NCBI RefSeq assembly: GCF_900215655.1
Contig: NZ_OBEN01000001.1
Location: forward strand, 248,001 to 312,000
DNA from: Hydrogenobacter hydrogenophilus
GTDB taxonomy: Bacteria; Aquificota; Aquificia; Aquificales; Aquificaceae
Direction: 5' to 3'
DNA: 64,000 bases
Shown here: positions 449-38,767 of the stretch, one piece after another
How the letters are laid out: each line of letters begins with the position of its first letter
Position numbering within the stretch: position 1 is the stretch's first letter
Made by a program: the position numbers and the translations under genes
Notes under the pieces: model-generated
The model's input: only the letters and a program-made list of their open reading frames with translations
Database searches by the model: none
Told to the model about the DNA's origin: nothing

Positions 449-1351
449 GCCTTCCGGGATCAGCTTGGGCTTTAGTTTTGTGTGGTATAGGTCGTAGACT
501 TTGAAAAAAACAGAAGCTTTTAGTTTGTCAAGCTCCTCCTGACAGCCTCTGAGTCTTTCCAACTCTTCTTTTTGATCCAATAAAGTTTGTTCAGCAGAGA
601 GCCTCGCGCTTCTTTCCTGAGTAAGCAGATGCATCAAATGTTCCGTGGACTTTATTTTCTTTAGAAGCTGTGTGTGGGGGTCCTGGCACAAAAGGTCGTA
701 AGTAAGATACCCGAGGATCTCGCTGAGGGTCATGGGCTTTTCTGGCATAAAGAAAAACTCGTAAAGCTTGTCTTCGCAAGTGTTTATGGTAGGAAAACGC
801 ATAAAAGCCTCTGCTCTTTTTGTCATGAGTTCGGGACCAATCACGCTCAGGCTGTAGGCATACTCCCTTAAAGCCTTCATCTTTATTTCGCACACATCCG
901 TCACATCAACAAGCTGGTTGTACCTAAAAGTGTTGTAAACACCGTAAAGATGCAGTTCAAAGGAGGGTTTTTCCTCAAATATGGAGATCACAGCAAGGGA
1001 TGTGGCTATGTGGTCTGGGTGATGGTCAAGGGGATGTGGAGCGTAAACCTTCTGGAAGTCCTTTATCCGCTCTTCTAAAGCAGACTTTAGGCTTGGTATG
1101 TGGTTTTTTAGCTCTCCGTCTGGAAAGTCCAAAAATTCCACATGACTTATTCCCAAGATTTTGGAAACTTTTACACACTCCTCTTTCCTCTTGTTCCCAT
1201 CAAGAAACTTAGAACCGTCTGTAAGGACATACAGCAAGACTTCATCCCCCGCCTGTGCGTGCTTATAAAGCGTTCCACCACAACCCAGTACCTCGTCATC
1301 TGGGTGTGGAGCTATCACGACAACAGTGCTTCTCTCATTCTTTCTTTCCAT
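395..1351 (-). CDS. PIG-L/LmbE family N-acetyl sugar deacetylase
   Basis: 318 residues. The N-terminus has the family zinc motif APHPDDE (residues 14-20, HPDDE at 16-20) followed by GCGGT, and the second motif HPDH at 111-114; the family uses these His/Asp residues to bind Zn and hydrolyse N-acetyl groups on glucosaminyl lipids or glycoconjugates. The core ends near residue 220. A C-terminal extension of roughly 90 residues follows, with a Glu/Leu-rich stretch (about 235-282) that looks like a coiled coil. The ATG lies inside the 3' end of the upstream glycosyltransferase (37 nt overlap), so the two are probably translationally coupled and may act on the same glycan. The substrate cannot be told from sequence. 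Confidence 0.88.
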   Translation of the reverse strand: MERKNERSTVVVIAPHPDDEVLGCGGTLYKHAQAGDEVLLYVLTDGSKFLDGNKRKEECVKVSKILGISHVEFLDFPDGELKNHIPSLKSALEERIKDFQKVYAPHPLDHHPDHIATSLAVISIFEEKPSFELHLYGVYNTFRYNQLVDVTDVCEIKMKALREYAYSLSVIGPELMTKRAEAFMRFPTINTCEDKLYEFFFMPEKPMTLSEILGYLTYDLLCQDPHTQLLKKIKSTEHLMHLLTQERSARLSAEQTLLDQKEELERLRGCQEELDKLKASVFFKVYDLYHTKLKPKLIPEGSLREGLYKRLISFIKGG

Positions 1352-2379
1352 AGCTCTATAGAAAACCTCCTGCGCACTTCTTTGGAGATGTACTCTCTAT
1401 AGTGATCTCTTATGACTTTGTACTTTTTTATGACCTCTATTCGCCTAAGAAACTCTTCTACGCTTAACTCTGCTACCAAAAAGCCATTTAGAAGGTCAAT
1501 GATCTCTTCTGACACGACCGACTTTGAAGTTATCACCGGTATACCACACGCAAGAGCCTCCAATATGCTAAGCGCAAACCCTTCATACCTTGAAGGAAAC
1601 ACTAAAAAGTCTGCAAGGTTATAAATGATAGGCATTTCCTCAAATGACACTTCTCTGAAAGCAATTATGTCTCTCACAGGCTCATAAGAATCAGAGCTAC
1701 CACTTGATATAGCTTGTACCCAAAGGATATCTTTGTAAGTGTGTCTTACTAGCTCTCTAAATACGTCGTAGCCCTTTGTGTAGTCGTTCCTACCCACAAA
1801 GAGTCCCACAAGTGCATCCTTTGGTATGTTATACATCTCCCTTATCTTTTTCTTGTCCATAGGCTGGAAGATGGGATCCACTGGGTTAGGAATGGCTACT
1901 ACGTGCTTTTCAACCTGTCGCTGTATAGCTTCCTTTAGGCGCTGACACACCGCTATTATAAGGTCCGCAGAGTTCAGCACAAAAGCTTCTGCCAGATAAC
2001 CGTTGAGATACCTATTTACTAAGTATTCCCAATAATCTACTCCCATTTCTTGTATGTCTTCCTCACTTATCACCCTGTTTTCAAAGAATTCTGTATAGAG
2101 CCCGTGTATGATAGCTACCGTTTTTTTTGCTTTTCCAGGGAATAGACCCAAGCCTGATAAGTTATTTACAATTGCCAAGTCCCAGCTTTTTTCTGAAAAG
2201 TAAGCCTGTCTACCTACCCAATAAGGAGAATAACTTCCAATTTTCTGGCTATTGTCTGCGTGTATAAGCTCTATACTGTAACCCTCTTCGCTTAGCATGT
2301 CCATAAGATGAAGCACCACTCTTTCTATGCCCCCTCTGAATTTGAAAGGATCTACCAAGTTAAGGATAACTGCCTGCAT
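1315..2379 (-). CDS. Glycosyltransferase, GT-B fold (GT4-like), copy 1 of a tandem pair
   Basis: 354 residues. Features of retaining GT-B glycosyltransferases are visible: an N-terminal acceptor domain, a Rossmann-like donor half beginning at LVGLFVGRNDYTKG (about 190-203), and the E-x7-E signature EGFALSILE at 266-274 followed by ALACGIPVITS. It is closely similar to the gene immediately upstream (2392-3453), so the pair arose by tandem duplication; the last 110 nt or so of the two are identical. Sugar donor and acceptor are unknown. Placement before a PIG-L deacetylase suggests cell-surface glycan or glycolipid assembly. It starts at MQAVILN, matching the paralogue. Confidence 0.9.
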   Translation of the reverse strand: MQAVILNLVDPFKFRGGIERVVLHLMDMLSEEGYSIELIHADNSQKIGSYSPYWVGRQAYFSEKSWDLAIVNNLSGLGLFPGKAKKTVAIIHGLYTEFFENRVISEEDIQEMGVDYWEYLVNRYLNGYLAEAFVLNSADLIIAVCQRLKEAIQRQVEKHVVAIPNPVDPIFQPMDKKKIREMYNIPKDALVGLFVGRNDYTKGYDVFRELVRHTYKDILWVQAISSGSSDSYEPVRDIIAFREVSFEEMPIIYNLADFLVFPSRYEGFALSILEALACGIPVITSKSVVSEEIIDLLNGFLVAELSVEEFLRRIEVIKKYKVIRDHYREYISKEVRRRFSIELWKERMREALLS

Positions 2380-2391
2380 GTCAGAAATATT

Positions 2392-3453
2392 TTAAACTAA
2401 AACTTCCCTCATTCTTTCTTTCCATAGCTCTATAGAAAACCTCCTGCGCACTTCTTTGGAGATGTACTCTCTATAGTGATCTCTTATGACTTTGTACTTT
2501 TTTATGACCTCTATTTGCTTAAGAAACTCCTCTGCGCTTAGCTCTTCTATCAAAAAGCCATTTAGAAGGTCAATGATCTCTTCTGACACGACCGACTTTG
2601 AAGTTATCACAGGTATGCCACACGCAAGAGCCTCCACTATAGTAAGTCCAAAGCCTTCATATCTTGAAGGAAACACTAAAAAGTCTGCAAGGTTGTAAAT
2701 GATAGGCATTTCTTCAAATGGGACTCCTCTGAAAGTAATTATGTCCTTCATCAAAGGTATAGAGGAGGCAAGGCCACCCCCTGAAAGCACCTGCACCCAA
2801 AGGATATCTTTGTATGTGTATCTGACTATCTCTCTAAATACGTCGTAGCCCTTTGTGTAGTCATTCCTACCCACAAAGAGTCCCACAAGTGCATCTTTTG
2901 GTATGTTATACATCTCCCTTAATCTTCCCTTGTCCATTGGTCTAAAGCTTGGGTCCACTGGGTTGTGGATTACTATAACATCTCTATCTGTGTGTTTTTT
3001 TATGGCTTCTTTGAGGCTCTGGCTCACCGCCACCACCCTGTCTGCGGAGTTCAGCACAAAAGCCTCAGCTATATACCCGTTGAGATACCTATTTACCAAG
3101 TACTCCCAGTAATTCATGCCTGCCTTAGGTAAGTCCTCTTCCTTTATTGCATTCCCAAAAAAGTCCATGTAAAGTCCGTGAAATATAGCCACAGTTTTTT
3201 TTGTCCTGCCTGGGAAAAACCCAACACCTGCCAAGTTGTTCACCACAGCTAAATCCCAGACCTTTTCAGAAAGGTGTGCCTGCCTGCCTACCCAGTAAGG
3301 AGCAAACCCACCCAACTTTTGGCTGTTTTCTTTGTGGATGACCTCCACCCTGTAGCCCTCCTGTGAGAGCAGGTCTATCACACCCAAGACAACCCTCTCT
3401 GTCCCCCCTTTGAACATCAGAGGGTCTTCCATGTTGAGGATAAGAGCTTGCAT
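2392..3453 (-). CDS. Glycosyltransferase, GT-B fold (GT4-like), copy 2 of a tandem pair
   Basis: 353 residues from the ATG at 3453. The frame extends 6 codons further to a TTG at 3471 inside mtnC, but the ATG aligns with the start of copy 1 (MQALILN versus MQAVILN) and sits just after the mtnC stop. It has the same architecture as copy 1: LVGLFVGRNDYTKG, then EGFGLTIVE and ALACGIPVITS. The protein diverges from copy 1 mostly in the acceptor-side N-terminal half, as expected if the paralogues recognise different acceptors. It lies in the run mtnD-mtnC-GT-GT-PIG-L with almost no spacing, so it is probably co-transcribed from the mtnD promoter. Confidence 0.9.
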   Translation of the reverse strand: MQALILNMEDPLMFKGGTERVVLGVIDLLSQEGYRVEVIHKENSQKLGGFAPYWVGRQAHLSEKVWDLAVVNNLAGVGFFPGRTKKTVAIFHGLYMDFFGNAIKEEDLPKAGMNYWEYLVNRYLNGYIAEAFVLNSADRVVAVSQSLKEAIKKHTDRDVIVIHNPVDPSFRPMDKGRLREMYNIPKDALVGLFVGRNDYTKGYDVFREIVRYTYKDILWVQVLSGGGLASSIPLMKDIITFRGVPFEEMPIIYNLADFLVFPSRYEGFGLTIVEALACGIPVITSKSVVSEEIIDLLNGFLIEELSAEEFLKQIEVIKKYKVIRDHYREYISKEVRRRFSIELWKERMREVLV

Positions 3454-3460
3454 GCCAGTA

Positions 3461-4135
3461 TTATATTTCAATGGAGTAAAAGTCCTTTACAGTTGGGTGT
3501 TTGGATTGCACTTCACAGTCCCTTGCCAGCCTTGTGGTCTTCATGCCTGCCATCTTTGCACAGTCAAGCTCTTCTTCTAAGTCGGAGAGAAAAAGCACCT
3601 TATCAGGGTCTATGTTTATAGTTTTGGCTATGGTTTCGTAGGACCGTGGGTCTTTTTTGCTCCCTACTTTTGTGTCAAAGTATCCTGAGAAAAGATAGGT
3701 TAAATCACCGTAAGGAGTATGAGAAAAAAGAAGTTTTTGGGCTTTTACAGACCCGGAAGAGAAGACATAAAGCTTTATCCCCCTTGAGTGCCACTCCTTG
3801 AGCTTTTTGTAAGCATCTTGGTATATGTGCCCCATTAGCTCGCCCTTTTGGTAGCCCTCTTCCCATATATACCCTTGAATTTCCTTAAGCACTGTATCTT
3901 TCCTATCCTCATCTATCCACTTGGTGAGAAGCTCAAGTGTCTCTTCAAGGCTTAGAGTTTTTCCCAGTTTGTTAAAAAGCTCCTCAAGTATTGCCCTTAT
4001 TCTTTCATCGTCCCAGTGGCTGTCTAAAAAACTTCTTAGTTTGTTCTTTGAGTAAGGAAATAGAACATCCTTCACAAAAGATAGTGAAGAAGTAGTGCCT
4101 TCTATGTCCGTAAGCACCGCTAAGATCTTAGCCAT
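3461..4135 (-). CDS. mtnC: Enolase-phosphatase E1 (methionine salvage)
   Basis: 224 residues, the usual length. This HAD-superfamily enzyme converts 2,3-diketo-5-methylthiopentyl-1-phosphate to the acireductone. The first HAD motif reads LTDIEGTTSS, with D10 and E12 in the DxEG form typical of E1; the second motif is VFSSGSVKAQ, and FLSDLEEELDCAK near the C-terminus is the acidic Mg-binding motif. The start overlaps the end of mtnD by 16 nt. Gene order mtnD-mtnC places consecutive pathway enzymes together: the product of MtnC is the substrate of MtnD. Other salvage genes are not in the window. Confidence 0.95.
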   Translation of the reverse strand: MAKILAVLTDIEGTTSSLSFVKDVLFPYSKNKLRSFLDSHWDDERIRAILEELFNKLGKTLSLEETLELLTKWIDEDRKDTVLKEIQGYIWEEGYQKGELMGHIYQDAYKKLKEWHSRGIKLYVFSSGSVKAQKLLFSHTPYGDLTYLFSGYFDTKVGSKKDPRSYETIAKTINIDPDKVLFLSDLEEELDCAKMAGMKTTRLARDCEVQSKHPTVKDFYSIEI

Positions 4136-4671
4136 GAGCTTACTATACTATCGTGATCAGGGATAACTTCTGATATGTTGCTTCCTGTGAAGTTTGCTAC
4201 CCAGCCTTCTGGGATAGTGAAAAACCTTATGGCGGTAAAGTGTGGTTCCTTTCCCATATCAAACCAATGGGGAGTACCAGAAGGTACGCTTATAAGGTCT
4301 CCTTCTTCACAGACTACTGCATAAACCCTGTCTTGCAAATGAAGGTAAAAAGTGCCTCTGCCTTCTACAAAGAAACGCACTTCAAAGTCCGAGTGGGTGT
4401 GTTCTTTTAAAAACATGTTTCTTAGCTCTTCCTTTTTGGGGTGATCTGGTGTAATGCTTGCCACATCTACAGATACAAAATGAAAAGTTTCGTTTATCCT
4501 TTGGATCTCGTCGTGATAAGCTCTGAGTATGTCTTCTTGTCCTTTTACAGGTTTTACCCTCCACCTTTCAAAAAGCACACCAACCTTATCTAACCTTTGG
4601 CTTATAGCTTTGTAGTCCTTTTCAGTTAAAAGGGGATAGCCTTTCTCATCATAAATTACAAGCAAGCTCAT
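4120..4671 (-). CDS. mtnD: Acireductone dioxygenase
   Basis: 183 residues, cupin fold. It oxidises the acireductone of the methionine salvage pathway to 2-keto-4-methylthiobutyrate and formate (Fe form). Metal ligands are clear: H91, H93 and E97 in EHTHSDFEVRFF, and H135 in GTPHWFDMG. The ATG at 4671 is preceded by no Shine-Dalgarno, but a TATAAT lies only 7 nt upstream, so the mRNA may be leaderless. It is the first gene of the minus-strand run that continues into mtnC and the glycosyltransferases, and is divergent from tig. Confidence 0.95.
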   Translation of the reverse strand: MSLLVIYDEKGYPLLTEKDYKAISQRLDKVGVLFERWRVKPVKGQEDILRAYHDEIQRINETFHFVSVDVASITPDHPKKEELRNMFLKEHTHSDFEVRFFVEGRGTFYLHLQDRVYAVVCEEGDLISVPSGTPHWFDMGKEPHFTAIRFFTIPEGWVANFTGSNISEVIPDHDSIVSSWLRS

Positions 4672-4678
4672 GGCTTTA

Positions 4679-4686
4679 ATTATAAT
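4679..4686. promoter_or_regulatory. Overlapping divergent -10 elements of mtnD and tig
   Basis: The octamer ATTATAAT holds a TATAAT on each strand: 4679-4684 on the minus strand (7 nt from the mtnD ATG) and 4681-4686 on the plus strand (39 nt from the tig ATG). Neither has a convincing -35; TTACAA at 4656-4661 could serve tig with a long 19-nt spacer. Because the two -10 boxes share bases, polymerase can probably occupy only one direction at a time. Confidence 0.5.
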
Positions 4687-4725
4687 ACGGTGTGTGATAA
4701 ACTATTAAGTGAAAGGAGGCAGTGT

Positions 4726-6015
4726 ATGAAAGTTTCTGTAAAAGAAAGAGAAGGGCTTTTTAAAGAGTTAAGTGTAGAAGTAGAAGGCGATATGGTAAAG
4801 TCCGCCATGGAGGATGTTTACAGATACTTGAAGGAAAATGTGAGTATAGAAGGCTTTAGAAAGGGCACCGCACCCCTTTGGATCATAAAGGCAAGATATA
4901 AAGAACACATTGAGGAGGAAGTAGGAAAGAGAGTAGCTAACCAAACTCTCCAATCAGCCATCGAGGAAAGCAAGCTAAAACCTGTTGCAGACATATTTTT
5001 AGAAGAGGTAAAGTTAGAAGAGAACGTGCCCAAGCTTACCTACAGGGTGGTTTTTGAGACACCCCCAGAGTTTGAGCTAAAGGATCTTGAGGGCATAGAG
5101 GTAGAGGTAAGAAAGATAGAGTTCAACGAAGATTTGGTCAAAAACAGGATAGAGGAGCTCAGGGAACAGCACGCAGTCTGGGAGCCTGTTGAAAGGGAAA
5201 TAAGAGAAGGAGACTTGGTATCTGTTGATTATTACATAGAAGAGGTGCAAAGTGGAGAGATCACCCAAGGAGAGACATCAGGAATAGTAGGACAGAAGAT
5301 GTTCAGAGAAGAGATAGAGAAAGCTCTGATTGGAAAAAAAGAAGGTGATGAAGTGTTTATGGAAGACCTCCCCCTTTACGACATGGAAGGCAAGGAAGCA
5401 GGAAGAGCTAAGGTAAAGCTTGTTATCAAAAGTGTAAAAGAGAAGGTCCTTCCTGAAATAAACGATGACTTTGCAAAGGAGTTAGGATTAGGAGATACAT
5501 GGCAATCTGCAGAAGAAAAGATAAGGGAAGAGGTAAAACAAAGTGTGGAGCGTCTGAAGAAGATTATTGTTGAAGATGCGGTAGCTAAAAAGCTCATTGA
5601 GATGTTTGAGTTTGAACTGCCACAAACACTTCTTTCCCGTGAGGTGTCCCATTTGGTAGAAAGAAGAGTGCAAGAGCTTGCCCAGTATGGTATAGACACA
5701 AGGTATCTTAACTACAAGGCTATGGCACAGGAACTTATGCCACAAGCCATATTTAACATAAAACTGAGATACATACTTGAAAAGTATGCGGATCAAAAGG
5801 GTATAGAAGTAAGTCAGGAGGATTTAGAGAAAAAGTACCAAGAACTTGCACAGCAATACGGAAAAAGCGCTGAAGAGATAAAGTCTTACTTCCAACAGGA
5901 AAATCTTGAAGGCGTGCTAATAGAAGACATACGCAGAGAAAAAGCCTTCAGTGATATAATAAGCAAAGCGGTGATAAAAGAATTAGAGGAGAAGAAGGAT
6001 GAAGGAAATACTTAA
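4726..6015 (+). CDS. tig: Trigger factor, ribosome-associated chaperone and PPIase
   Basis: 429 residues from the ATG at 4726, chosen over the upstream in-frame codon at 4690 because AAAGGAGG (4712-4719) is correctly placed and MKVSVKERE fits the family N-terminus. Trigger factor binds ribosomal protein L23 at the exit tunnel and holds nascent chains. The ribosome-binding signature GFRKGTAP is present near residue 46, a FKBP-like PPIase domain occupies about 145-235, and a long helical C-terminal arm follows. It overlaps clpP by 17 nt; tig-clpP-clpX is a widely conserved order linking folding and proteolysis. Confidence 0.97.
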
Positions 6016-6598
6016 TCAGCTGGTACCTATAGTTATAGAGCAAACTCCAAGAGGAGAAAGAGCTTATGACATATACTCAAGACTTCTTCAGGACAGGATA
6101 GTGCTTCTTGGTTATCCCATAGACGACCATGTTGCCAATCTCATAGTAGCCCAACTGCTTTTCTTGGAAGCCCAAGACCCAGAAAAGGACATATACATGT
6201 ACATAAATTCACCGGGTGGCTCGGTGACCGCAGGTATGGCAATATATGACACCATGCAGTACATAAAGCCTGATGTGGTCACCATATGTATAGGACAGGC
6301 TGCGTCTATGGGAGCTGTGCTTCTAGCTGCAGGAGCTCCCGGCAAAAGGTACGCACTCCCCCACGCACGCATAATGATACACCAACCTTTGGGAGGTATA
6401 ACGGGGCAGGCAACGGACATTATAATCCACGCTGAGGAGATAAAGCGTATAAAACACATGCTCAACGAAATACTCGCAAAACACACAGGACAACCTCTTG
6501 AACGCATAGAAAGAGATGTGGAAAGAGATTACTTTATGTCTGCAGAAGAGGCAAGAGAGTACGGAATAGTGGATAAGGTTATTGCCAAAAGGCAGTGA
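5999..6598 (+). CDS. clpP: ATP-dependent Clp protease proteolytic subunit
   Basis: 199 residues. The serine-protease triad is visible: S103 in GQAASMGA, H128 in ARIMIHQP and D177 in ERDYFMSA. It forms the double-heptamer chamber that degrades substrates unfolded by ClpX. INSPGGSV, the oxyanion-loop region, is intact. The first residues ([16 protein letters not shown]) include the short propeptide region usual for ClpP. It overlaps tig by 17 nt and is followed by clpX, so all three are probably one transcript. Confidence 0.98.
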
Positions 6599-6622
6599 TG
6601 AGCTTATATTTTGGGAGCTAAC

Positions 6623-7861
6623 ATGAAAAGATACACAACTAAAAACCATTGCTCCTTCTGTGGAAGGTCTCAGGATGAAGTCTTAGTTCTCATAGCTGGT
6701 CCTAACGACACCTTTATATGTGATAGGTGCGTGGAAGCTTGCAACTCTGTGATAAGGGAACAGAAAAAACAGCAAGTTTCTTACGGTCTTAGAGACATAC
6801 CAAAGCCAGAAAGGATAAAAGCCTTCCTTGATGAGTATGTGATAGGACAGGAGAGAGCCAAAAAGATACTCTCAGTAGCGGTGTACAATCATTACAAGAG
6901 GATAAGGGCAAAGCAAGCGGGACTTACCTTTGATGATGTGGAGGTAGAAAAGAGCAACATACTGCTTATAGGACCAACTGGTTCTGGCAAAACTCTGCTT
7001 GCCAAAACCCTTGCCAAGCTTTTAAATGTACCCTTTGCCATAGCAGACGCCACAAGTCTTACAGAAGCCGGTTATGTAGGTGAAGATGTGGAAAATGTGC
7101 TAACGAGACTCTTGCAAAATTGCGGGTATGATGTAAAGCTTGCTCAGATTGGCATAGTTTACATAGATGAGATAGACAAGATAGCCAAAAAGTCTGGAAT
7201 AAACCCATCCATAACAAGAGATGTTTCTGGAGAAGGTGTCCAGCAAGCTCTTTTGAAGATCATAGAGGGAACAGTAGCTAATGTGCCACCTCAGGGAGGT
7301 AGAAAGCATCCCCATCAGGAATTTATACAGGTGGATACAACAGACATACTTTTCATATGCGGTGGTGCTTTTGTGGGCCTTGAGGACATAATAAGGCGCA
7401 GGCTTGGAAAATCCACCATAGGCTTTGAGTCCCAAATAAGCGCTACACTGAAAGAAGATAACATTCTTCAGCTTGTAGAACCCGACGATCTTATACACTT
7501 TGGTCTTATACCAGAGTTTGTGGGAAGACTTCCTGTAGTTGCAGTTCTAGATGAATTAAAAGAGGAAGATTTGGTAAGGATCCTTACAGAACCCAAAAAC
7601 TCCCTGGTAAAGCAGTATAAAAAGCTCTTTGAGATGGATGGTGTAGAACTAGAATTTACTGAGGAAGCTCTAAGAGAAATAGCAAGAGAAAGCATAAAGA
7701 GAAAGACGGGAGCCAGAGGTCTCAGAGCTATAATGGAAGAAATAATGACGGATGTTATGTTTGAAGTGCCATCACTGAAAGAGGTGAATAAGGTAATAAT
7801 AGACGAAGAAGTGGTCAGAAATAGAGTAAAGCCCAAGTATGTTTACAAAAAGGCGGTATAA
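6623..7861 (+). CDS. clpX: ClpX, AAA+ unfoldase of the ClpXP protease
   Basis: 412 residues from the ATG at 6623; an in-frame TTG at 6611 is less likely because GGGAG (6613-6617) sits upstream of the ATG. The N-terminal zinc-binding domain has C10, C13, C33 and C36. Walker A is GPTGSGKT (117-124), Walker B is [10 protein letters not shown], the ClpP-docking IGF tripeptide is present in KSTIGFES, and the sensor-2 motif is GARGLRAI. All hallmarks of an active ClpX are intact. It follows clpP by 24 nt. Confidence 0.98.
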
Positions 7862-10576: not shown

Positions 10577-12022
10577 ATGAAAGACCTGAGAGAATTTTTG
10601 AAGGTTTTGGAAAAAGAAGGTGAGCTTTTACGCATAAAAGAGCTTTTGTCTCCTATACTTGAGATAACAGAGCTTACCGATAGGGTTTCCAAACTGCCCA
10701 AAGGTGGAAAAGCTCTTCTTTTTGAAAAGGTTGAAGGGTATTCAATACCCGTGCTAACTAACATGCTGGGTTCAGAAAAACGAATAAAGTTAGCTTTAGG
10801 CTACGAAAACCTTGAAGATATAGGGTGGAAACTCTACAAACTTCTAAGACCAGAAATACCCAATACTTTTTTAGAAAAACTAAAGCGCATACCAGAACTC
10901 AAAAAGCTCAACGACTCACTGCCCAGAGTTGTAAAAAAAGGACCCGTAAAAGAAAATGTCATAAGGGACAACATAAATATTCTTGACTTTCCTGTGCTAA
11001 AGTGCTGGCCAGAAGACGGAGGTAGATACATAACCTTCGGACAGGTCATAACAAAGGATCCAGAAAGTGGCATAAGAAATGTGGGACTCTATAGAGTTCA
11101 GGTTCTCTCAGAGCGTGAGCTTGCCATCCATTGGCAGATACACAAAGACGGAAACCATCATTACTGGAAAGCCAAAAGACTTGGGAAAAAGATGGAAGTA
11201 GCTATAGCTATAGGTGGAGACCCAGTGCTCTCTTATGTAGCTTCCGCACCTCTTCCTCCAGAGGTGGATGAGTACCTCTTTGCAGGTCTCATCAGGGAAG
11301 AAGGGGTAGAGCTTGTAAAAGGTGAAACTGTAGATCTTGAATATCCCGCTCATGCAGAGATAGTAATAGAAGGTTATGTGGATCCACAAGAACCTCTTGT
11401 GGACGAAGGACCCTTTGGAGACCACACTGGCTTTTACACCCCGGTGGACAAGTATCCCAAAATGCACATAACCGCCATAGTGCATAGGGACAATCCCATA
11501 TACCTTAGCACCATAGTGGGAAGACCCCCTCAGGAGGACAAGTACTTGGGTTGGGCAACGGAGAGGATATTTTTACCTCTTATAAAGTTTAATCTTCCAG
11601 AGGTAATTGATTATCATTTGCCTGCGGAAGGATGCTTTCACAACTTCTGCTTTGTTTCCATAAAAAAGCGCTACCCGGGACATGCCTTTAAAGTGGCTTA
11701 TGCCCTTTTGGGTTTGGGTCTTATGTCTCTGGAAAAAGTGATAGTAGTTTTTGACGAGTGGGTAAATGTTCACGACATACAAGAAGTCCTTTGGGCTTGG
11801 GGCAACAACATGGACCCATCAAGAGATGTCCTCATACTCAAGGGTCCAATAGACGTGCTTGATCATTCTACCAACAGTGTAGGCTTTGGCGGTAAAATGG
11901 TCATAGATGCCACTACAAAGTGGAAAGAAGAAGGATACACAAGAGAATGGCCCAAGGTTATAGAGATGTCAAAGGAAGTAAAGGATAAGATAGATGCTCT
12001 GTGGCAGAGGTTAAAATTATGA
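10577..12022 (+). CDS. UbiD-family decarboxylase
   Basis: 481 residues, the usual family length. UbiD enzymes use prenylated FMN, made by UbiX, to decarboxylate aromatic acids such as the 4-hydroxybenzoate-derived intermediate of ubiquinone or analogous menaquinone precursors. Family hallmarks include EGPFGDHTGFYTP near residue 277, PEVIDYHLPAEGCFHNF near 345, and NSVGFGGKMVIDAT close to the C-terminus. It begins directly after the stop of the M23 gene and is followed one base later by the globin-PsiE gene. In an organism that uses menaquinone-type quinones a role in quinone synthesis is likely, but the substrate is not shown by sequence. Confidence 0.92.
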   Translation: MKDLREFLKVLEKEGELLRIKELLSPILEITELTDRVSKLPKGGKALLFEKVEGYSIPVLTNMLGSEKRIKLALGYENLEDIGWKLYKLLRPEIPNTFLEKLKRIPELKKLNDSLPRVVKKGPVKENVIRDNINILDFPVLKCWPEDGGRYITFGQVITKDPESGIRNVGLYRVQVLSERELAIHWQIHKDGNHHYWKAKRLGKKMEVAIAIGGDPVLSYVASAPLPPEVDEYLFAGLIREEGVELVKGETVDLEYPAHAEIVIEGYVDPQEPLVDEGPFGDHTGFYTPVDKYPKMHITAIVHRDNPIYLSTIVGRPPQEDKYLGWATERIFLPLIKFNLPEVIDYHLPAEGCFHNFCFVSIKKRYPGHAFKVAYALLGLGLMSLEKVIVVFDEWVNVHDIQEVLWAWGNNMDPSRDVLILKGPIDVLDHSTNSVGFGGKMVIDATTKWKEEGYTREWPKVIEMSKEVKDKIDALWQRLKL

Positions 12023-12023
12023 C

Positions 12024-12923
12024 ATGGAGACTATAGAAGAACTTAAGGTACATTATAACTGGACAAGAGAGGACGAAGAGAACTTAGCTAAAGTGTCTTG
12101 GATAGCGGAAAGGTACAAGGAAGAATTCATTGAAGAGTTCTACAGATACTTAGAGAACTTCTCCGATACAAGTAAGTACCTTCCTGACGAGGAAACAAGA
12201 AGCAGACACAAAGCAAAAGTTAAGGGCTGGTTCGTTGCTCTGTTCACATCAAAATACGATGCCCAGTATCTGAGAAGGCTCTACAGGATAGGTGAAACCC
12301 ATGTGAGGATAGGACTGCCACCTCACTATGTGCAAGCTTCTATGAACTTTGTAAGAAACTACATAGCGGATAAGATCACAAAAGAGATGGGATGTAGCCT
12401 TGAAGCAAACAGAATACTCTCCTCTATTAACAAGGCTTTGGATATAAACCTTGATGTGATGATAAACTCTTTCAGGGAGGAGGAGCTCCGTCTTTATCTT
12501 GCATCTGGTAAGTATCAGAGATTACTCATAGAAAACATAAGAAGGGTATCGTGGTTTTTTGATACTTTCATAATACTTACCTTAGCAGTAGTTGGGGTGT
12601 TCCTCATATTTTGGATAGTTTATGAAATATGGCTTGTCTCTGTAGGAAGTCTCCCTTTAGAAAGAGGTGGGCTTAGCATTCTGGGTTCTGTCCTTGTCCT
12701 TTACGCCATATCAGAGCTCCTTACAGAAGAAGTAAAGCACATAAGGGGTTCTGCCCTAAGTATAAAAGTCTTTGTAGGTGTTGCCCTTGCTGCAGTGATT
12801 AGAAAGGTTCTTATCATATCCCTTTCGCCAGAAAAAGTTCAGGAGCTTATAACCTTGTCCTTAGTCACTTTAGCCTTAGGAGTTGTCTTTTGGCTCATCT
12901 ATAAAGTGGAGTCCAAGACTTGA
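12024..12923 (+). CDS. Membrane-anchored sensor globin fused to a PsiE-like domain
   Basis: 299 residues with two parts. Residues about 10-160 resemble the sensor-globin/protoglobin domain: the stretch GETHVRIGLPPHYVQASM carries H93 at the position of the proximal heme ligand, matching the HVRIGL pattern of HemAT-type globins. Residues about 175-295 hold four hydrophobic segments and the motif ELLTEEVKHIRG followed by AAVIRKVLI, which resembles the PsiE family (cf. the separate PsiE protein at 37573-37986). I see no methyl-accepting, GGDEF or kinase output domain. It starts 1 nt after the ubiD-like stop, so it is probably co-expressed. It may sense O2, NO or CO through heme and signal through the membrane part; that role is inference. 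Confidence 0.75.
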   Translation: METIEELKVHYNWTREDEENLAKVSWIAERYKEEFIEEFYRYLENFSDTSKYLPDEETRSRHKAKVKGWFVALFTSKYDAQYLRRLYRIGETHVRIGLPPHYVQASMNFVRNYIADKITKEMGCSLEANRILSSINKALDINLDVMINSFREEELRLYLASGKYQRLLIENIRRVSWFFDTFIILTLAVVGVFLIFWIVYEIWLVSVGSLPLERGGLSILGSVLVLYAISELLTEEVKHIRGSALSIKVFVGVALAAVIRKVLIISLSPEKVQELITLSLVTLALGVVFWLIYKVESKT

Positions 12924-36271: not shown

Positions 36272-37576
36272 GTGAAGGTAAAAGTAGGCATAGTAGGTTG
36301 TGGCGTAGTAGGAACAGGAACGGTAAGACTGCTGTTAGAAAACTCTAACATAATACAGAAAAAGACAGGTGTAGAACTTGTACTTACAAAAGTCGCAGAC
36401 AAAGATTGGGAAAGAAAAAGGGAGATAGAGATACCTACTTATCTCAGAACACATGACTACAGGGAAGTTATAAAAGAGAGTGATATAGTCGTTGAACTTG
36501 TAGGTGGCAAGGATTTTGCTAAAAACCTTATACTTGAAGCTCTTGAAGAAAACAAACACGTAATTACTGCTAACAAACGCTTGCTTGCGGAAGACGGTCT
36601 TGAAGTCTTCAGAAAAGCCAGAGAAAGGGGTTTGCACATAGGCTTTGAGGCATCTGTAGGTGGTGGTATTCCTATAGTTAAAGCTCTAAAGGAAGGTCTT
36701 GTAGGCAACAGGGTAAGAGCCATCTATGGTATTCTCAACGGAACCACTAACTATATACTTACCAAAATGCTAGAAGAAAGGATGGACTTTTCACACGCTC
36801 TTGAACTTGCTCAAAAACAGGGTTATGCAGAGGCGGACCCCTCCTTAGACATAGACGGTTGGGATTCTGCCCACAAGATATGCATACTTTCCATGATAGC
36901 CTTCGGTAGGTATGTACCTTTTGAAGAGGTTTATGTAGAAGGCATAAGAGACCTTGATCTGCTTGATTTGGAGCTTGGAAAAGAGCTTGGATACACTCTA
37001 AAACTTCTTGCTATATCAAAAAGAAGGGATGGAAGTATGGAAGTCAGAGTTCATCCTACTTTTATAAGGTCAGAGGATGCTCTTGCTAAGGTTTCCGATG
37101 TTTATAATGCCATAATGGTAGAGGGTGATTTTGTAGGCAAAACTATGTTTTACGGTAAGGGTGCTGGTGGTCAGCCTACCGCTTCCGCCGTAGTTTCTGA
37201 TATCGTGGACATAGCTAAAAAACTCCTCTTTTGCACGAAAGATAAAGATCAATTGGAATGGGAGGACCAATCTTTATATTTGAGCAAGGATTTTTACAGC
37301 AGGTATTACATGAGGTTTGATGTGCCTGATAGACCAGGTGTATTGGCAAGTGTTTCCAGGGTCTTGGCAGATTATAACATAAGCATAGCCAGTGTGCTTC
37401 AAAAAGAGAAGGTTTGCAAGATGGCAGGTAGGGAAGGCGAACCTATAGTCCCTCTTGTTATACTCACGCACAAAGCTTACGAAAGCAGTATGCAAAAAGC
37501 TATAAGAGAGATAAAAAACCTCCCCGTCATAATGGGAGAGCCTGTAGTCATACGCGTTGAAGAAGAAGCATATTAA
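36272..37576 (+). CDS. hom: Homoserine dehydrogenase
   Basis: 434 residues, starting with GTG. The NAD(P) motif is VGIVGCGVVGTGTVRLL. ELVGGKDFAKNLILEAL, TANKRLLAEDG, ASVGGGIPIVKALKEGL and GILNGTTNYILTKM are typical, with the catalytic Lys region in EADPSLDIDGWDSAHK. The C-terminal ACT domain (about 345-430, YYMRFDVPDRPGVLASVS) suggests feedback by threonine. It reduces aspartate semialdehyde to homoserine for threonine and methionine. It ends 4 nt within the convergent psiE-like gene. Confidence 0.96.
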   Translation: MKVKVGIVGCGVVGTGTVRLLLENSNIIQKKTGVELVLTKVADKDWERKREIEIPTYLRTHDYREVIKESDIVVELVGGKDFAKNLILEALEENKHVITANKRLLAEDGLEVFRKARERGLHIGFEASVGGGIPIVKALKEGLVGNRVRAIYGILNGTTNYILTKMLEERMDFSHALELAQKQGYAEADPSLDIDGWDSAHKICILSMIAFGRYVPFEEVYVEGIRDLDLLDLELGKELGYTLKLLAISKRRDGSMEVRVHPTFIRSEDALAKVSDVYNAIMVEGDFVGKTMFYGKGAGGQPTASAVVSDIVDIAKKLLFCTKDKDQLEWEDQSLYLSKDFYSRYYMRFDVPDRPGVLASVSRVLADYNISIASVLQKEKVCKMAGREGEPIVPLVILTHKAYESSMQKAIREIKNLPVIMGEPVVIRVEEEAY

Positions 37577-37986
37577 GCCTTTGCCACTCTGTAAAAAAGG
37601 CTTATAAACCTGGCAGCTATAAGAAACGCTATACCAAAAGACCAAAAAAACACATCCATACCAGACATATTACCTTCAAAAAGGTGGAGCATAAATTCCC
37701 TTATGATAAAAGCTATAAGCACCTCTAAAAGAATCTCCACCCTTACCCTTTCGTGTTCAAAAAAGTCTATAAAAGCCCTTATAAGTTCAAGCACCACTAT
37801 AAGAGAAAGTACATTGGTAACAAGCTCCTTAAAGCCAAGTCTGACCGTTGCTTCTGAAGCGGTTAAACCTATTTCCGATATAGTTCTGTAAATACCTACA
37901 AACAAGCCTATAATAAGCACAATTATGGTTATGTTAAAAGCTAATATAATGAAGCCTTTGTATATTTTTGATACAAACTCTTGCAT
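37573..37986 (-). CDS. PsiE-family membrane protein
   Basis: 137 residues with four hydrophobic helices. The signature VLELIRAFIDFFEHERVRVEILLEVLIAFIIREFML matches PsiE (phosphate-starvation-inducible E), whose biochemical role is unknown. It starts one base after the end of the citryl-CoA lyase gene, so it is at the tail of the long minus-strand operon. A second PsiE-like domain is found fused to a globin at 12024-12923. Confidence 0.85.
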   Translation of the reverse strand: MQEFVSKIYKGFIILAFNITIIVLIIGLFVGIYRTISEIGLTASEATVRLGFKELVTNVLSLIVVLELIRAFIDFFEHERVRVEILLEVLIAFIIREFMLHLFEGNMSGMDVFFWSFGIAFLIAARFISLFYRVAKA

Positions 37987-37987
37987 T

Positions 37988-38767
37988 CTAAATCTTCTTT
38001 ATATCTGGTGGCAGTTCCCTCGGAGGCAGTCCTGTATATTCCACATCTTTCTCCTCGTCAAGCCTTTTAGAAAAAGGTTTTTCTGTGGTTAGCTCTTCGT
38101 AAACATGCGCTACAAGCCCTGGAACTCTACCTATTATGAAGAAGCCTTTCCCCAACCTCCAATCAAACCCCATCTCTGATGCAACTGCAGCTATGGCTCC
38201 GTCTACGTTAAGAACAAGTTTTTTGCCTTTCTGTTTTGCTATTTCTTCTTCTACCGCCTGAGCAAATTCGCAGTGCTTTCCATAAAATTCCAAAGCCTTT
38301 GCAATATCCATAAGCCTTTTGGTTCTTGGATCAAAGTCCTTATAATACCTGTGTCCATACCCCGGTATGGGTTTTCTTGCAGAAAGATATTCGCTGACTA
38401 TGTCCTCAACACCTTTTCCACTTGCTACACCTTCCTGCATAAACTTCATGGCATCCTCTAAGGCACCACCGTGAGCAGAACCAAAAGCCAATATACCTGC
38501 CGCCACTCCCACATTCAAAGAATTACCACCAGACGCTACCGCTCTTGCGGCTATGGCAGAAGGTGGAGCAATACCGTGGTCTATCACAGAAACAAGCATG
38601 GCTTCCATCATCCTGCTTTCCCTTTCTGTTGGAAGCTCACCTTTTAGTATGAGATAAACAGCTTGCGCAAAAGAAAGATTGCCTACCAGATCAAGCAGTC
38701 TGTAGCCTCTTATGTAAGTTTCGTGTCCCAAATGCTGAGTTATAGCGGTTCTCCACATACCCATCAA
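37988..38767 (-). CDS. ccl: Citryl-CoA lyase (citrate synthase-like)
   Basis: 259 residues, shorter than citrate synthase (about 370-430). The citrate-synthase active site is present: the His in FGSAHGGALEDAM, PIPGYGHRYYKDFDPR with the second His, and the acidic residue in LNVDGAIAAVASEMG. In Hydrogenobacter, citrate is cleaved in the reductive TCA cycle in two steps, by citryl-CoA synthetase and this small lyase, giving acetyl-CoA and oxaloacetate; size and sequence type match. A small citrate-synthase homologue of another function is the alternative. It overlaps the PpiD-like gene by 4 nt. Synthetase genes are not in the window. Confidence 0.85.
   Translation of the reverse strand: MMGMWRTAITQHLGHETYIRGYRLLDLVGNLSFAQAVYLILKGELPTERESRMMEAMLVSVIDHGIAPPSAIAARAVASGGNSLNVGVAAGILAFGSAHGGALEDAMKFMQEGVASGKGVEDIVSEYLSARKPIPGYGHRYYKDFDPRTKRLMDIAKALEFYGKHCEFAQAVEEEIAKQKGKKLVLNVDGAIAAVASEMGFDWRLGKGFFIIGRVPGLVAHVYEELTTEKPFSKRLDEEKDVEYTGLPPRELPPDIKKI

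Follow-up and report, generated by a model that had tools for sequence, protein, structure and literature searches.

The window, a 64,000-nucleotide stretch of the Hydrogenobacter hydrogenophilus genome, carries on its forward strand a gene (12024..12923, stop codon included) for a protein of 299 residues in which a globin is joined to a PsiE domain. The earlier note had read the N-terminal half of this protein as a globin-coupled sensor (GCS) domain with a proximal His at position 93 and the C-terminal half as a PsiE-like membrane domain of four helices, and both assignments are borne out. Residues 3-154 (12030..12485, forward strand) match the Protoglobin family of Pfam-A (PF11563) with an E-value of 2.2e-27 and 96.4 bits against a curated cut-off of 25. 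The closest sequence in the PDB is that of the globin of the Geobacter sulfurreducens GCS (GsGCS; PDB identifier 2w31; E=2e-32 over residues 2-161), and in the sequence alignment His93 of the fusion (12300-12302, +) falls on the proximal HisF8 of 2w31; conservation and fold matching agree with this assignment. Residues 182-295 (12567..12908, +) match PsiE (PF06146) with an E-value of 4.3e-21 and 75.8 bits against a curated cut-off of 23.9, and conservation, structure prediction, hydropathy and the distribution of charges further support a PsiE domain of four membrane helices. NCBIfam returned no match for the fusion protein. Other residues of note on the same strand are TyrB10 (Tyr40, 12141-12143) and the distal HisE7 (His62, 12207-12209) within the globin, and the conserved Glu231 (12714-12716) and Arg260 (12801-12803) within the PsiE domain. 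A chance open frame is excluded, since the same two-domain frame is found in about 100 other genomes that were read or scored. The protein thus has a sensor-globin domain, HisF8 and, at the C-terminal effector position, a PsiE domain, which on sequence grounds is the putative effector of a globin-coupled sensor. PsiE is known from phosphate-starvation screens in E. coli, and we know of no activity or function established for it.

An AlphaFold2 (AF2) model of the full-length fusion, built from 28 sequences, has a mean pLDDT of 82 and a pTM of 0.52, i.e., moderate confidence with an unreliable domain arrangement, and consists of the globin followed by four membrane helices. The globin helices lie between residues 4 and 122, with a final globin helix at 126-159. 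Beyond the globin, an unbroken helix at 163-207 (12510..12644, +), which comprises the linker and the first membrane helix (TM1) and is the predicted signal helix, is followed by helices at 212-240, 247-265 and 269-298. Hydropathy agrees, with four hydrophobic segments at 181-199, 215-233, 249-267 and 275-293, and the four helices reappear when the PsiE domain is modelled by itself (pLDDT 81, pTM 0.65). In fold, the predicted globin comes closest to 2w31 (target-normalised TM-score 0.94), and AfGcHK and HemAT are also matched. Loop 2, the C-terminus and the stretch on the N-terminal side of TM1 carry positive charges, and the globin should therefore be cytoplasmic. A Foldseek search of the PDB with the model of the PsiE domain found nothing at E<=0.001 (best E=1.0), though the model is of moderate quality and a distant match could escape; with the same reservation, this search points to no kinship of PsiE with a known channel or transporter, and no structural match backs the channel-like role raised in the earlier note.

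The fusion is present in all three sampled families of Aquificales among 61 genomes, namely the window's own and those of its relatives. A wider survey with a profile made from 13 globin-PsiE fusions located it in Hydrogenobacter, Hydrogenobaculum, Persephonella and Sulfurihydrogenibium, and also in metagenome-assembled genomes (MAGs) assigned to Nitrospirae, Deltaproteobacteria and Muproteobacteria. Upon even sampling, near-full-length matches were obtained in 40 of 148 genomes from the phylum of the Nitrospirae MAG, in 35 of 247 from that of the Deltaproteobacteria MAG (one of these has an internal stop) and in two of 349 Pseudomonadota genomes, so that the fusion is not a rarity. In a Geobacter-like family, 53 of 76 genomes have frames of about 300-410 residues that encode a globin with 46-65% identity to 2w31; PsiE is present in those members of the group that were read, and the ten sampled sequences with a His at position E11 are without exception PsiE fusions. 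The G. sulfurreducens GCS itself presumably ends in a membrane domain. The recurrence of the fusion in other phyla and in the Geobacter-like family indicates that the globin-PsiE architecture is old, widespread and common, and that the crystallised GsGCS globin, by similarity, very probably belongs to this class. One copy of the gene, broken by a frameshift and stop codons within the PsiE part, was seen in a genome that is otherwise a single contig (G048, L023).

Conservation was counted over 93 distinct fusions, of which 92 retain the proximal His93 and 81 the Tyr at B10. A distal His is present either at E7, as in the window (68/93), or at E11, the GsGCS type (residue 66; 10/93), and never at both, so that one or the other is found in 78 of the 93. 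In contrast, none of 27 GCS-type globins without PsiE, sampled from the same and related genomes, has a His at E7 or E11; these have an aliphatic residue at E7 and mostly Gln, Trp or Leu at E11. The difference (78/93 versus 0/27) gives a Fisher p of about 2e-16, which is indicative only as the sequences are related. Seven further fusions have His rather than Tyr at B10 and none at E7 or E11, and a His at B10 accompanied by Gln or Arg at E11 (L129-L133, L104 and L105) marks a possible third distal-His position. GsGCS has been shown by experiment to be bis-histidyl through E11 and F8, as cited in PMC4476040, and its EPR values are given in PMC3520999. Compared with such a bis-histidyl globin, the window protein has the His at E7, and its distal His, which may be able to bind the iron, is conserved in kind. 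We infer that the PsiE-coupled globins as a class may use bis-His or His-assisted ligand binding, and hence redox, NO or O2 switching, unlike the ordinary oxygen-sensing GCSs.

A pocket prone to bis-His ligation is also compatible with electron transfer, and the PsiE part could then be a mere membrane anchor for a globin that acts as a membrane redox or NO/O2-handling heme protein, exchanging electrons with quinones or cytochromes and sending no signal to PsiE. However, Glu231 in the second membrane helix (TM2) is invariant in all 93 fusions and Arg260 in TM3 in 91 of 91, and such intramembrane residues are unexpected in an anchor; the acidic TM2 position (Glu/Asp) and the Arg-Lys of TM3 also occur in stand-alone PsiE proteins and in those fused to the BLUF photosensor described below. 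The gene order offers the anchor reading another point in its favour, in that a ubiD-family decarboxylase gene (10577..12022, +) ends 1 nt before the start of the fusion gene and is probably co-transcribed with it, but this adjacency is kept only within the window's genus. Clustering of the genes that flank 74 fusion or PsiE loci gave no neighbour that recurs across lineages, and the genes adjoining these loci appear on inspection to be housekeeping ones (ndk, cysS, rlmN, purD, purH). An operon partner for the fusion was accordingly rejected, and the fusion appears to be self-contained.

The earlier note had also pointed to a stand-alone PsiE beside a carbon-fixation gene in the window. Its position is correct: a gene for a PsiE protein of 137 residues (37573..37986, reverse strand; Pfam E=2e-08) follows, after one base, a gene of the citrate synthase family (37988-38767, reverse strand), which from its length and context is probably that of citryl-CoA lyase. 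However, this is a different and distant PsiE (34.9 bits), and the pairing is confined to part of the Aquificaceae, being kept in the window's genus and in four other genomes (G012, G014, G027 and G033), while the two genes are not adjacent in G005, G019, G025 and G031. As a clue to the fusion this adjacency was set aside, since it concerns another PsiE and is only partly kept. It shows no link to carbon fixation.

Loss and decay of the globin separate the two domains in several lineages. In one clade (g11: G014, G033, G027 and L076), a PsiE of 142-144 residues is encoded with no globin; it is 73-80% identical to the PsiE of the window where compared, which exceeds the 67% seen with G005, whose fusion is intact, and its gene order is that of L054, where a complete fusion is present. 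No globin remnant was found upstream of it, nor a globin match elsewhere in the g11 genomes that were searched. A relic globin ahead of the short PsiE was thus rejected in favour of a clean loss, most likely by deletion in place. In G001 (L009), which belongs to the window's genus, His93 is replaced by Tyr and three residues are missing while the frame is intact. Its globin is 73% identical to that of the window as against 98% for its PsiE and, with G002 as reference, omega is 0.43 on the G001 globin branch compared with 0.08 both on the G000 globin branch and for the PsiE of G001, which suggests relaxed selection on the G001 globin. The same replacement of His93 by Tyr is seen in L052. In G012, a stretch including the start of the E-helix is deleted and TyrB10 is gone, whereas the congener G019 is intact, and dN is 0.69 for the globin versus 0.28 for PsiE. 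In all three cases PsiE is under purifying selection (omega of about 0.02-0.13 where measurable), from which we conclude that PsiE has a function of its own and that the globin is a removable controller. The lineages that retain PsiE without the globin show that sensing is dispensable there, which counts against the sensor-controlled reading favoured below. Such persistence of PsiE once the globin is lost also speaks against a mere anchor.

These losses could also be taken to mean that the globin is a folding or heme-scavenging remnant and that the protein acts as a plain constitutive PsiE, which would fit the conservation of PsiE in g11, G001 and G012 while the globin is lost or decays. Against this, globin and PsiE evolve at equal and low rates in most lineages (dN of about 0.08 each between G003 and G004), His93 is almost invariant, and one distal His is retained even though its position moves, so that we consider a remnant quite improbable. 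The reverse direction of control, in which PsiE senses a state of the membrane (potential, phosphate or lipid) and governs the chemistry of the globin's heme, would agree with the wide occurrence of PsiE on its own and with the retention of both parts in the fusion. However, PsiE outlasts the globin in three lineages, and no lineage was seen in which a fusion-type globin is kept and PsiE cleanly lost, the frameshifted copy of G048 being the only case that approaches it.

A second sensor bears on both the reverse direction and the anchor. Among the PsiE frames surveyed in Pseudomonadota are proteins of about 295 residues (L209, L210, L211, L217 and L218) in which BLUF (E of about 1e-31) is fused to PsiE (E of about 1e-26), both above the Pfam cut-off. 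BLUF-PsiE is found in five genomes of a 78-genome class, with a split copy in a sixth, and a plasmid of Candidatus Thiodictyon syntrophicum (L246; 40% identity) also carries it. Nine other long PsiE frames (G279, G135, G110, G117, G291, G479, G582, G583 and G455) were rejected as fusions, being by eye stand-alone PsiE proteins with unrelated upstream readthrough. In a tree of PsiE domains, those fused to the globin make up a single clade on a long branch and those fused to BLUF are placed elsewhere (SH-aLRT support of 100 for both, with a quick method), and we therefore regard globin and BLUF as having been attached to PsiE independently. At L231 and L232, genes for MerR, photolyase, 2-thiouracil desulfurase/DUF1722, lipocalin and BLUF-PsiE are arranged in tandem (Pfam names checked in L231, where the run spans 1114-7812), with BLUF-PsiE last; the lipocalin and BLUF-PsiE genes overlap by a few bases, and ferrochelatase lies downstream. 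The fusion was also noted at L228-L230. A full-text literature search for BLUF with PsiE returned no paper that looked relevant from its title and abstract, no relevant paper coupling PsiE with a globin was found, and we know of no report of the BLUF-PsiE pairing; sensor-PsiE proteins as a wider set are apparently undescribed.

The best evidence for PsiE as an output comes from the independent BLUF fusion, which supports a general role of PsiE at the membrane under the control of sensors. The same PsiE module joined to a photosensor is difficult to reconcile with a mere anchor, which we consider unlikely, and two unrelated kinds of sensor preceding PsiE render the reverse direction highly improbable. 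The proposal of the earlier note that PsiE is a sensor-controlled output thus finds partial support, with independent backing from the BLUF fusions. The globin-PsiE protein is, as its domains predict, a globin-coupled sensor whose output is PsiE, and one of a wider set of sensor-PsiE proteins. With a probability of roughly two in three, we favour the reading that a heme sensor controls a PsiE membrane module within one polypeptide, as a case of general coupling of sensors to a PsiE output.

In the mechanism that we propose, a cytoplasmic and probably dimeric heme sensor governs the four-helix PsiE module of the same polypeptide. The heme would be held by HisF8 (His93), and the distal HisE7 (His62) might coordinate the iron or else interact with a ligand bound to it. 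A change in oxidation state or the binding of O2, NO or CO would alter the distal ligand and shift the last globin helix, and this shift would travel along the helix predicted to be continuous over residues 163-207 into TM1. The input from TM1 would in turn change the conformation of the PsiE bundle, the core of which would be formed by Glu231 of TM2 and Arg260 and Lys261 of TM3. Heme binding, the identity of the signal and the coupling through the helix are our inferences. The output would be a membrane activity of PsiE, most likely the movement of ions or protons or the regulation of a partner in the membrane when the cell is under oxidative or redox stress, though ion movement itself is speculative and rather doubtful. 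Hints of a role in oxidative or redox stress and in ion homeostasis come from the occurrence of BLUF-PsiE with photolyase and from the tLST island of E. coli, in which thioredoxin and the K+/H+ antiporter KefB are encoded next to the PsiE-like orf14 (PMC8290217).

More tentatively, and at somewhat less than even odds, PsiE could be a general plug-in membrane effector placed under redox, gas or light sensors (the globin in Aquificota, Nitrospirota and the sampled Desulfobacterota-type phylum, BLUF in Pseudomonadota), so that each fusion would be a one-protein, sensor-gated valve against oxidative or photo-oxidative stress that requires neither a second messenger nor a partner gene. Fusion to two sensors of unrelated kinds, one of them responsive to light, makes PsiE a directly testable module, for which the natural variants without the globin or with His93 replaced by Tyr are ready-made signalling-off controls. 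The sensor-PsiE reading would, in addition, account for the C-terminal half of the Geobacter sensor whose globin was crystallised, a part that has been an orphan. The BLUF-PsiE fusion, the difference in the distal-His pocket and the uncoupling of globin and PsiE in several lineages are new.

Among known systems, E. coli PsiE and orf14 of the tLST island resemble the PsiE part of the fusion in matching PF06146 above the cut-off and in having four membrane helices, of which TM2 bears an acidic residue and TM3 Arg(-Lys), but they stand alone without a sensor, and the globin-fused PsiE domains form a clade apart. Against the mechanism that we favour, deletion of orf14 in E. coli left membrane-lipid oxidation unchanged, and orf14 does not figure among the genes that were reported to be required for resistance to heat or chlorine (PMC8407380). 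BLUF-PsiE shares with globin-PsiE a cytoplasmic N-terminal sensor of about 165 residues followed by PsiE, with similar spacing between sensor and TM1, but its sensor is a flavin (FAD) blue-light sensor instead of a heme sensor and it occurs in a photolyase cluster (L231/L232). TyrB10 and HisF8 are common to GsGCS and the fusion, whereas the distal ligand of GsGCS is a His at E11 (PMC4476040), a position taken by Val in the window protein, which has its His at E7. HemAT, AfGcHK, DosC/BpeGReg and RsbR have the globin fold and the proximal His in common with the fusion; their outputs are chemotaxis, kinase, diguanylate cyclase and STAS domains, and that of the fusion is PsiE.
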